Shown in pieces: positions 750 through 6,847 of a stretch of DNA of 64,000 bases. Position 1 is the stretch's first letter. Each line of letters starts with the position of its first letter. Position numbers and translations under genes: made by a program. This stretch comes from an uncultured Ruegeria sp. Lineage in GTDB: Bacteria > Pseudomonadota > Alphaproteobacteria > Rhodobacterales > Rhodobacteraceae. The DNA lies in assembly GCF_947504215.1 (NCBI RefSeq), contig NZ_CANNGO010000004.1, forward strand, positions 124,001 through 188,000, given 5' to 3'. Below the pieces are notes generated by a model that was not told the origin of the DNA, searched no databases, and was given only the letters and a program-made list of their open reading frames with translations.

Positions 750-780
750 TGTGATCACACCAAATAAACTCGTGATCACA
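750..780. promoter_or_regulatory. Paired GTGATCAC operator upstream of sdhC
   Basis: Two perfect 8-bp palindromes GTGATCAC lie at 751-758 and 772-779, exactly 21 bp apart (about two helical turns). The nearer one is about 115 bp upstream of the sdhC start. The same pair with identical spacing occurs upstream of sucC. Seen directly: the sites and spacing. Inferred: a dimeric regulator of TCA-cycle genes binds both sites cooperatively. The regulator is not identified. Confidence 0.7.
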
Positions 781-827
781 AAACCCATTCCACATCTTCA
801 ATGTTAGCGTTTTCAAGGGCCAAGCAT

Positions 828-837
828 TGTGATCACG
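828..837. promoter_or_regulatory. Third GTGATCAC site upstream of sdhC
   Basis: A further perfect GTGATCAC palindrome lies at 829-836, 57 bp beyond the paired sites and about 190 bp from the sdhC start. The gene on its other side ends at 851 and points away, so this site can only serve the sdh promoter. It may be an upstream auxiliary operator. Confidence 0.5.
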
Positions 838-850
838 AATCTTCGATGCT

Positions 851-1513
851 TCACTTCAACCCGGCCGTTTGCTCTACGACTTCGCGCAACAGCTTTTTTC
901 GTATTCGTTCCGGGTAGTCTTCAAACCCAGATGCAGAAACCACAAAAGCCCCTTCTCCGACGATCACATTCTCAAAGAAATACGCCGTCAGGTCAGGCTC
1001 GCTTTCTTCGATGGCGATTGCATTGACTGTAACGCCCCGATTGCGCAACACGCTGTGCACCTTCGTGGGTTCGACACCCTCATTCGAAACCCCATCCCCC
1101 GAAAGGTCGATCAAGTGGCGCTTACACTCCGAGACCGATTCAAAGCTGTCCATTGTCTTTTCGAGCGCTTCGCCAATCGCAGTAGAAAAGTTGCGCCAAA
1201 CCCTTGGATCCGAGGCAACTTGTGCGGCAAAGCCATCGAGTGCGTGAAAACTGTCGATCTGTGTCCAGGGAACCGTGATCTTTTGGCGCGACGCGCCCGT
1301 CCACTGTACGAGCATCAATTGCGCCTGCCCCCTGACCAGCGCTTCGGAGACAATGGGGTCACGCAACCCAGCGGCAAGACCGTCCATCTGAATGCGAAAT
1401 TCTTTGCTGTCGACCGAGCCCGACACATCAACCGCCAGCGCCAATGCCAGATCACAGGCCCATGCAGGCGGGGCGAGAGACAGGCAGACAGCAAGTGTTC
1501 GTAGTGAGACCAT
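851..1513 (-). CDS. Secreted DUF1194 von Willebrand factor A-type protein
   Basis: This is a 220-aa exported protein of unknown role. An N-terminal signal peptide (about residues 1-19, ending APPAWA) is followed by a vWA-like domain with a metal-ion-dependent adhesion site, DVSGSVDS, placing D29, S31 and S33 as metal ligands. The length and features fit the DUF1194 family of Proteobacteria, whose function is not established; vWA domains usually mediate metal-dependent protein binding. No clear Shine-Dalgarno precedes the ATG at 1513. It stands alone between the mch operon and the sdh promoter, with no sign of cotranscription. Confidence 0.82.
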   Translation of the reverse strand: MVSLRTLAVCLSLAPPAWACDLALALAVDVSGSVDSKEFRIQMDGLAAGLRDPIVSEALVRGQAQLMLVQWTGASRQKITVPWTQIDSFHALDGFAAQVASDPRVWRNFSTAIGEALEKTMDSFESVSECKRHLIDLSGDGVSNEGVEPTKVHSVLRNRGVTVNAIAIEESEPDLTAYFFENVIVGEGAFVVSASGFEDYPERIRKKLLREVVEQTAGLK

Positions 1514-1590
1514 AACCGCACGTTAGCACGTATCGTGAAATCTGCAGTCACATGAATGTAATCAAGCCGCAGGCATCTGGTGGCCAGACG

Positions 1591-2619
1591 TTAGATCGGC
1601 ATCAATGCCCAATAATCCAGATCCAACAAAACGTCAGGAAGGTACTTTCCGTCCTCGTTGCGCAACGCGAAAGGCGGCCCACCCTTGGTCGCCACCAATC
1701 GCAGGCGAACTGCGCCAACGCCCGGAACGCCTGTCTCGGCCTTGTCCAGCACTTCAGACCAGGCCTTGATCGTATCACCTGCAAAACATGGGTTGGCGTG
1801 GGCACCGCCATTCAGACCCACGATCATCTGGGCATTTGCCAGCCCGTTGAAAGACAACGTGCGCGCCATCGAGATCACATGGCCACCGTAGATCAGACGC
1901 CCGTCGGGGCGGAAGGTCAGATCGAAGTGTACCTTGGCCGTATTTTGCCAAAGGCGGGTGGCCAGCATGTGCTCGGCCTCTTCTATTGTCACCCCATCCA
2001 CGTGATCAATGGTTTCGCCGATCTCGTAGTCGCCCCACCTGTGCGCCTCACCGGACTGAACAAAACTGTAGTTAGAAAAGTCCAAACCCTGCGGGATCAT
2101 CAGATCTTCAGCGGCGAGCGCTTTCTTCAGCTCTGGAACAACCGTCTCAGGTGCAGGTGCATTCAGGTTCGATTTGCGCACCATAACCCAGCGGACGTAT
2201 TCGATAACAACGTCGTCGCGCTGGTTTAATCCGCGCGTGCGCACCCAAACAACGCCGGTTTTACCATTCGAGTTCTGCTTGACGCCGATCACTTCGGATT
2301 CTGATCGCAGCGTATCACCGGGATAAACAGGTTGCAGCCAGCGGCCTTCGGCATATCCCAGATTTGCCACCGCATTCAGTGAAACATCAGGCACCGTCTT
2401 GCCAAACACCACGTGAAATGCGGCCAGGTCATCAATCGGGCTTTCAGGCAAGCCGCAGTTCCGGGCAAATTCATCCGACGAATAAAGCGCGTGCCGCGCA
2501 GGATAAAGCGCGTGGTACAGCGCCCGCTCTCCGGCCGTCACGGTGCGCGGTACAGCATGGCGCAAAACTTGCCCTACGGAGTAATCTTCAAAGAAACGGC
2601 CCGGATTGGTCTTTGCCAT
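1591..2619 (-). CDS. mch: Mesaconyl-CoA hydratase (beta-methylmalyl-CoA dehydratase)
   Basis: This 342-aa protein has two MaoC-type hotdog domains (roughly residues 10-150 and 175-320) and matches the double-hotdog mesaconyl-CoA hydratases, which interconvert mesaconyl-CoA and beta-methylmalyl-CoA in the ethylmalonyl-CoA pathway of acetate assimilation. The N-terminal half contains PGDTL and a hotdog helix, and the second half ends with a DYWALMPI tail. Its ATG overlaps the TAA of the upstream DUF1737 gene (TAATG), so translation is coupled. It closes the operon mcl2-nnrU-DUF1737-mch. From memory, the equivalent genes in Rhodobacter sphaeroides (RSP_0970 to RSP_0973) have the same order, which supports the call. 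Confidence 0.88.
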   Translation of the reverse strand: MAKTNPGRFFEDYSVGQVLRHAVPRTVTAGERALYHALYPARHALYSSDEFARNCGLPESPIDDLAAFHVVFGKTVPDVSLNAVANLGYAEGRWLQPVYPGDTLRSESEVIGVKQNSNGKTGVVWVRTRGLNQRDDVVIEYVRWVMVRKSNLNAPAPETVVPELKKALAAEDLMIPQGLDFSNYSFVQSGEAHRWGDYEIGETIDHVDGVTIEEAEHMLATRLWQNTAKVHFDLTFRPDGRLIYGGHVISMARTLSFNGLANAQMIVGLNGGAHANPCFAGDTIKAWSEVLDKAETGVPGVGAVRLRLVATKGGPPFALRNEDGKYLPDVLLDLDYWALMPI

Positions 2620-5508: not shown

Positions 5509-5668
5509 GTGGCAGCCCCAAAACGGTATATTTCGTAAGCCGTTTAGCGCAATCGGTGGGGCAGGTGCAAACGGTATGCGGTGGCATGCCACGTTGCAGA
5601 ACCCTTGCGCAATGTTGATTTAGCGACTAGCACAACCGCGATTTCAAAACCGACCGGAGATATTCCAA

Positions 5669-6631
5669 ATGGCCAGACCCAAGATCGCGCTGATCGGCGC
5701 AGGTCAGATCGGCGGCACGCTCGCCCACCTCGCAGCAATGAAGGAACTTGGTGACGTTGTCCTGTTTGACATCGCCGAGGGTACTCCGGAAGGTAAAGCT
5801 CTGGACATCGCCGAATCCGGCCCGTCCGAAGGGTTCGACGCCTCTCTGAAAGGCACCCAGTCTTACGAAGATATCGCAGGCGCGGATGTTTGCATCGTGA
5901 CTGCCGGTGTCCCGCGCAAACCGGGCATGAGCCGCGACGACCTGCTGGGCATCAACCTGAAGGTCATGAAATCGGTTGGCGAAGGCATCGCGGCCCACGC
6001 CCCTGACGCGTTTGTCATCTGCATCACCAACCCACTGGATGCGATGGTCTGGGCCCTGCGCGAGTTTTCCGGCATGCCACATAATAAGGTCTGTGGCATG
6101 GCAGGCGTTCTGGATTCGGGCCGCTTCGCGCATTTCCTGTCGGAGGAATTCAATGTCTCCATGCGCGACGTCACCGCGTTTGTTCTGGGTGGTCATGGCG
6201 ATACCATGGTGCCGTCAGTGCGCTATTCGACGGTTGCCGGCATTCCATTGCCCGATCTGGTCGAGATGGGCTGGACGACACAAGAAAAACTGGACGCCAT
6301 CGTTCAGCGCACCCGTGACGGTGGCGCTGAAATCGTTGGTCTGCTGAAAACTGGCTCGGCGTTTTATGCTCCGGCCACGTCAGCCATCGAAATGGCCGAA
6401 GCCTATCTGAAAGACCAGAAACGCGTTCTGCCTTGCGCGGCCTATTGCGACGGGGAACTGGGCGTCGAAGGCATGTATGTGGGCGTACCCACTGTGATCG
6501 GCGCGGGTGGCATCGAACGCATCGTCAACATCACCCTGAACGAAGAAGAGCAGGCCGGTTTCGACAATTCGGTCAACGCCGTAAAAGGCCTGATCGAGGC
6601 GTGCAAGGGCATCGACAACTCGTTGGGTTAA
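5669..6631 (+). CDS. mdh: Malate dehydrogenase (LDH-like type)
   Basis: This enzyme oxidises malate to oxaloacetate with NAD in the TCA cycle. It is 320 aa, the usual length of the lactate-dehydrogenase-like malate dehydrogenases. The NAD-binding loop GAGQIGG is at residues 10-16. Substrate arginines R83 and R89 lie in [10 protein letters not shown], and the catalytic pair D149 (VLDSGRF) and H176 (GGHGDTM) are intact. The GGAG about ten bases before the ATG supports the start. A strong terminator follows at 6655-6683, so mdh is transcribed separately from sucC although the order mdh-sucC is conserved in the group. Confidence 0.97.
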
Positions 6632-6654
6632 TCCACCAAGCGTCAGACCATTTG

Positions 6655-6683
6655 AACCGGCCCGACGTTGGGCCGGTTTTTTT
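6655..6683 (+). terminator. Rho-independent terminator of mdh
   Basis: A perfect 9-bp stem (AACCGGCCC paired with GGGCCGGTT) with a six-base loop is followed by a run of T residues at 6677-6683, starting 24 bases after the mdh stop. Confidence 0.93.
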
Positions 6684-6816
6684 GTTTTCATTCGTTCCGA
6701 TGTGACCACAAAGCTAAGTCGGGAATGTTGGCGCAAACGTCGCAAATACCTTTTTTGAATATGATTTTTCTGCCAACAGCCAATTGTTCGAATCACACAT
6801 GCCACCTGGTGTGGTT

Positions 6817-6847
6817 TGTGATCACACCCCAAAATCCCGTGATCACA
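6817..6847. promoter_or_regulatory. Paired GTGATCAC operator upstream of sucC
   Basis: The 325-base gap between mdh and sucC holds the mdh terminator and then this pair of perfect GTGATCAC palindromes at 6818-6825 and 6839-6846, exactly 21 bp apart, with the nearer one about 111 bp before the sucC start. A degenerate copy, TGTGACCACA, lies at 6701-6710. The remaining bases to the start are AT-rich and presumably contain the promoter, but I could not place -35/-10 elements with confidence. The arrangement matches the sdhC upstream region. Confidence 0.7.

Follow-up and report, generated by a model that had tools for sequence, protein, structure and literature searches.

The DNA analysed here is a stretch of 64,000 nucleotides (the window) from an uncultured Ruegeria sp. 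(contig NZ_CANNGO010000004.1, positions 124,001 to 188,000), which carries sdhC, the first gene of the sdhCDAB operon, and the suc block that begins with sucC. In front of each of these two sets of tricarboxylic acid (TCA) cycle genes lies a pair of GTGATCAC palindromes whose sites are 21 bp apart, with 13 bp (N13) between them. These twin sites are real and conserved across the host family, the Rhodobacteraceae, and, judged from the sequence, they are very probably double operators for a putative orthologue of AkgR, an activator of the GntR family (FCD subfamily).

Twin sites before sdhC and sucC

The four paired sites stand exactly where the original prediction, made from the letters of the window, had placed them, and its distances of 115 and 111 bp to the start codons hold to within 1 bp, the actual intervals being 114 bp between the proximal site and the ATG of sdhC (636-634, minus strand) and 110 bp between the proximal site and the ATG of sucC (6957). 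The window contains 7 copies of GTGATCAC versus a mean of 1.16 in dinucleotide-preserving shuffles, none of which (0 of 100) reaches 7. The exact GTGATCAC-N13-GTGATCAC arrangement occurs at two places in the 4.53-Mb genome, before sdhC and before sucC only. For this reason, the whole-genome search gives no exact pair before gltA, acnA or icd. When up to three mismatches are allowed, the matches listed for the N13 pair include 9 places that deviate at two letters and none that deviates at one.

Conservation was followed in a family sample of 295 genomes from 294 genera, the host genome included. Two GTGATCAC sites separated by 1-31 bp are present in 268 of the 295, and the reversed pattern is found in a single one. 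In the 37 genomes for which the places were listed, the spacing is nearly fixed, given that 65 of 75 pairs are N13 and 5 are N12, the remaining 5 having other spacers (these counts, as well as the co-occurrence counts given below, were tallied by hand from the listings). From the relatives 40 regions were taken, of which 38, from 35 genomes, hold N12-13 pairs at sdh or suc; these amount to 66 pairs, with 31 before sdhC, 34 before sucC and one before sucA. The upstream position proposed for related genomes is thus found for 65 of the 66, and the shuffles, the restriction of the exact pair to two places in the host genome and the near absence of the reversed pattern bear out the claim that chance is a very unlikely source of the pairs. 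At sucC, the interval from the end of the pair to the ATG is 99-117 bp in 27 of the 34 regions of the relatives and 130-154 bp in the other 7.

Table 1. Genes, palindromic sites and promoter elements around the two pairs (positions in the window).
Feature	Position	Strand	Basis
sdhC, first gene of the sdhCDAB operon, the rest of which lies past the window start	253..636	-	
Inferred -10 of sdhC, TAAAAC	666..671	-	GTGACW-16-TAnnAA consensus, 26 aligned relatives
Inferred -35 of sdhC, GTGACA, 57 bp from the pair	688..693	-	GTGACW-16-TAnnAA consensus, 26 aligned relatives
Proximal GTGATCAC site of the sdhC pair, part of TGTGATCACA (750-759)	751..758	.	Sequence; same bases as the distal site
Distal GTGATCAC site of the sdhC pair	772..779	.	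Sequence; pair at two genome places only; kept in relatives
Third GTGATCAC copy, 57 bp past the sdhC pair, probably no working part	829..836	.	Not conserved
Distal GTGATCAC site of the sucC pair, part of TGTGATCACA (6817-6826)	6818..6825	.	Sequence; kept in relatives
Proximal GTGATCAC site of the sucC pair	6839..6846	.	Sequence; kept in relatives
Candidate -10 of sucC, TATAAC, weak	6919..6924	+	
sucC, first gene of the suc block	6957..8150	+	

The third copy is present as predicted, and its role as part of the operator is rejected, given that none of the 66 pairs in the 38 regions has a counterpart within 100 bp. The one-mismatch TGTGACCACA also stands at the predicted position, 6701-6710, and two more copies of GTGATCAC are found within the reading frames of sucD (10003-10010) and lpd (17748-17755). 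In the window, sucC, sucD and sucA are parted by other open frames at 8151-9624 (about 1.5 kb) and 10507-11816 (about 1.3 kb), unlike in one relative (L227), where the distance from sucC to sucD is about 0.1 kb.

The relatives show several variations of the arrangement. In G177, with a differing gene order, the suc-side pair (L128:1433-1461) is the one that stands before sucA instead of sucC, placing the operator at another suc gene. In G042, on contig C16, an exact N13 pair (L147:1494-1522) stands about 125 bp before a gene that we take, from its sequence, to be fumC, encoding fumarate hydratase, so that in that genus a further TCA gene seems to have come under the twin operator. L147 is one of the two regions, out of the 40, that are not among the 38; in the other (L148) a pair with an N5 spacer precedes the regulator's own gene. 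In 33 genomes there are at least three pairs at N1-31, and of the 29 that were searched again at N12-13, 23 have exactly two. The other six are G135, G191, G285, G238, G230 and G276, the first three of which (L181, C11:327609-327658 and L171, respectively) have three GTGATCAC in a row in 21-bp steps, the rows of L171 and L181 standing before sucC. The third pair of G238 (L172) was rejected as an extra target because the region looks coding.

In a class-wide draw of 385 genomes, an N11-14 pair was found in 10, which are all 5 of the family members drawn and 5 of the 380 others (G308, G440, G495, G597 and G669); in two of the latter the spacer is GC-rich and the pair may belong to coding sequence. 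In G440, from another family, the pair is N13 (L150:992-1020) and stands upstream of a gene for a GntR protein that shares about 30% identity with the regulator described below, possibly representing an independent use of the twin site.

A GntR/FCD regulator gene with a single site

A regulator gene with the same site upstream, which the original prediction had proposed to look for, is found on a contig other than that of the window (G000:C14:105689-106333, minus strand). It encodes a protein of 215 amino acids in which the GntR and FCD domains both score over the cut-off. It is one of 16 FCD-type regulators of the host genome, and for the remaining 15 genes no GTGATCAC was found upstream in flanks of 1.5 kb. 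For the C14 gene, TGTGATCACA stops 7 bp before the ATG, inside its own promoter. Among the named orthologues, which are the best 80 of 312 relatives and mostly belong to Ruegeria and its near kin, 78 have GTGATCAC before the gene, and in 77 of these 78 promoters the site starts exactly 18 bp past the start of TTGA[CT]. As for the two orthologues without GTGATCAC, L037 has GTGACCAC at the same place and L094 has nothing similar. The operator would therefore lie between the -35 and the -10 of the regulator promoter, with the ATG approximately at the expected transcription start. This geometry corresponds to the layout of an autorepressor with a near-leaderless message, and the single site suggests autorepression.

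In Paracoccus denitrificans and P. pantotrophus, the same regulator gene (70-72% identity) with the same promoter is found on the large replicons; in these two records, the sdh or suc genes queried were not found within 20 kb of it. Six genomes picked for having the regulator near the pairs have the order lpd, gntR and a ygjP-like gene, beside the suc genes. Three residues, N136, H140 and D205, do not vary in the alignment of 89 regulator orthologues. At the positions of N136 and D205, Asp and His, respectively, frequently serve as metal ligands in FCD proteins, and an altered metal site in this orthologue group is a lead only.

The presence of the regulator was scored with an E cut-off of 1e-50, which was set once the values had been seen. 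With this cut-off, 262 of the 295 genomes have both the pair and the regulator and 21 have neither, while 6 have only the pair (G019, G096, G114, G256, G264 and G273) and 6 only the regulator (G040, G122, G147, G155, G281 and G291; Fisher P 1.1e-21, ignoring kinship). Restricting the sample to the 260 genomes with completeness of at least 90% and contamination of at most 5% gives 236 with both, 17 with neither, 3 with the pair only and 4 with the regulator only (P 3.5e-20). The three pair-only genomes with completeness of at least 90% (G114, G019 and G256) have no strong regulator match, the regulator being absent from the assembly, diverged or replaced. Of the four regulator-only genomes in this restricted set, G040 and G291 carry pairs before sucC and sdhC that are slightly degenerate, with 1-2 mismatches, no pair within 2 mismatches was found in G281, and the matches listed for G155 fit neither sdhC nor sucC.

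The original prediction that one regulator controls sdh and suc together finds good support in the restriction of the pair to these two promoters, in its family-wide retention and in the GntR gene with the same site. Outside the window, TGTGATCAC occurs at 48 places on either strand (palindromes counted once), eight of which lie outside long reading frames, namely the regulator promoter, L007:3259, L242, L244, L250, L256, L265 and L267. The place L007:3259 lies in an intergenic GC-rich inverted repeat that looks more like a terminator. A wide regulon in the host genome was rejected, given that, besides the regulator promoter, none of the eight places is convincing. The recognisable regulon predicted here is thus made up of the sdhC, sucC and regulator promoters.

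Position of the pair in the sdhC promoter

The sdhC promoters have in common GTGACW, 16 bp and TAnnAA, with the T and the A of TA each present in 22 of 26 relatives aligned on GTGACW. In the window, with a gap of 57 bp between the pair and the -35, the centres of the sites lie at about -95 and -116 relative to the inferred start. A search for a pair followed by GTGACW after 44 to 74 bp in the 295 genomes matched 190, and the gaps were read for the 150 matches listed; they are 47-48 bp in 8, 57-61 bp in 127 and 68-71 bp in 11, with 44, 55, 66 and 66 bp in the other four. Five of the 150 do not belong to sdhC, given that G219 (44) and G192 (71) point away and that G146 (66), G016 (66) and G233 (55) are sucC pairs. 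After their removal there is no other exception to the gap classes among the matches listed, part of the 150 regions having been inspected.

The gaps were also counted directly at sdhC, with GTGACW only, and the loci chosen for a gap other than 58 bp were kept apart. Of the 45 sdhC loci that were not selected for their gap, 39 have GTGACW, at 48 bp (1), 57-61 bp (32), 68-71 bp (3) or 78-80 bp (3). The selected set comprised 17 regions, one of them from a genome already counted, and in 15 of its 16 further genomes the gap was confirmed to be 47-48 bp (7) or 69-71 bp (8), the other being G192 (L223), where no GTGACW was found before sdhC. All 54 gaps (39 unselected and 15 selected) therefore fall in the classes 47-48, 57-61, 68-71 and 78-80 bp, with none in between. 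On the well-supported branches of a tree of SdhC and SdhA, the minimum numbers of changes forced for the 48, 69 and 79 classes are 5, 4 and 3, respectively; the tree has few such branches, and the gap classes are clustered no more than shuffled labels. It leaves out L116, L134 and L223 (no sdhA), L123, L129, L139 and L170 (no [GA]TGACW) and L224 (from the same genome as L182). Given that the changes are forced, the shifts of the gap seem to have arisen repeatedly.

Gap steps of one helical turn indicate that it matters on which face of the helix the pair lies, as it should for an activator in contact with RNA polymerase from upstream, and suggest face-of-helix activation of sdhC. In class I activation by CRP of Escherichia coli, an upstream activator likewise works only from positions one helical turn apart. 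The likeness ends there, since the protein and the motif are unrelated, the variants at sdhC are natural ones between genera, and the operator is double.

Proposed mechanism, alternatives and meaning

In the mechanism that we propose, one dimer of the regulator would bind each GTGATCAC palindrome, and because the sites are two turns apart both dimers would sit on the same face of the DNA, an arrangement that fits cooperative binding over two turns. The dimers at about -95 and -116 would help RNA polymerase to start transcription of sdhCDAB, and the same activation may operate at sucC for the suc block, while the regulator would shut off its own near-leaderless promoter through the single site between -35 and -10. 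It is rather likely that the obligate twin site is a rigid module that slid along the sdhC promoter in whole turns (-1, 0, +1 and +2), repeatedly and independently, giving a natural spacing series for a GntR protein, with the regulator limiting itself through the single site that fills its promoter.

The regulator behind the twin sites is most likely AkgR, which is reported to be RSP_0981 of Rhodobacter sphaeroides (Imam et al. 2015). GTGATCAC is identified among the binding sites of the R. sphaeroides activator AkgR (PMC6365646), and the predicted targets of RSP_0981, a member of the GntR family, are succinyl-CoA synthetase, succinate dehydrogenase and 2-oxoglutarate dehydrogenase (PMC4344238). 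The features of that regulon are found here as well, namely the motif at target promoters, the target genes and a GntR regulator encoded in the genome and tied to the motif; here there are in addition twin operators in a fixed register of 20-21 bp at sdhC and sucC and a single site at the regulator promoter. Of the two candidates named by the original prediction, AkgR thus stands. CceR, a LacI-family regulator of central carbon metabolism that also has succinate dehydrogenase as a predicted target in Rhodobacter, does not, given that its predicted motif, [A/G/T]GTT-N6-8-AAC[A/C/T] (PMC4344238), is not contained in GTGATCAC (only the GTGATCAC sites were compared). The known regulator, motif and targets in R. 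sphaeroides are not new, while the rigid spacing and the placement of the twin sites may be. The twin layout, its family-wide rigidity, the one-turn series and the autorepressor promoter were not found in the literature searched, the primary AkgR paper being outside that search, and a literature search with the bare 10-mer gave no title on the regulation of these TCA operons.

A CRP/FNR protein was also considered as the binder. Its site is TGTGA-N6-TCACA, with a spacer of 6 bp, and it was rejected given that the half-sites TGTGA and TCACA abut here.

The same regulator could instead act as a repressor at sdhC and sucC, with a repression complex on the twin sites that is freed by an effector. 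Repressors are common among FCD-type GntR proteins, and in its own promoter the regulator does have its site at a repressor position. Nonetheless, the pairs are far upstream of the inferred -35 (57 bp in the window), changes of the gap by whole turns fit contact with RNA polymerase better than blocking, and AkgR is termed an activator (PMC6365646), which makes repression at the two targets unlikely. Less probable still is that a protein other than the AkgR orthologue, such as a second GntR paralogue, binds the twin sites. The 16 FCD regulators of the host leave room for one, and the GntR gene behind the pair of G440 points the same way. In Pseudomonas simiae, according to PMC6365646, the same palindrome is proposed for PS417_07240, a regulator of the deoxyribonate cluster that is 32% identical to AkgR, so that a paralogue could bind here too; its single site lies 40-47 bp before its own gene, and it serves deoxyribonate catabolism and not the TCA cycle. 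Against this second binder, the site stands upstream of no FCD regulator gene of the host but that of C14, and the occurrence of the C14 regulator follows that of the pairs. Chance or a non-regulatory sequence bias has a negligible probability, since, even if the single copies outside the window lie mostly in reading frames (40 of the 48 places, counting frames of 170 codons or more), so that a lone word means little, orthologous promoters keep the pair at fixed spacing in most of the 295 genomes.

Several observations weigh against activation by the AkgR orthologue from the twin sites, besides the related Pseudomonas protein and the cut-off chosen after the fact. Twelve of the 295 genomes are discordant for pair and regulator, and the Fisher statistics ignore kinship. 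G114, which is 100% complete, has the pair with only a weak match to the regulator (E 4e-31), and G155 and G281 have the regulator without a convincing pair. Six of the 45 unselected sdhC promoters have a pair and no GTGACW (L123, L125, L129, L134, L139 and L170). At sucC, a scan for sigma70-type promoters gave no consistent -35 and, for this reason, the argument from helical phase is limited to sdhC.

The fact that the R. sphaeroides regulator, motif and targets are already in print lowers the interest of the finding. What emerges is a nearly family-wide and very small circuit of the lower TCA cycle that can be read from the sequence and whose regulator has a name. In the one-turn series, nature provides promoter variants with which face-of-helix activation by an activator of the GntR family could be probed, and it follows from the layout that the regulator would have opposite effects on its targets and on its own gene.

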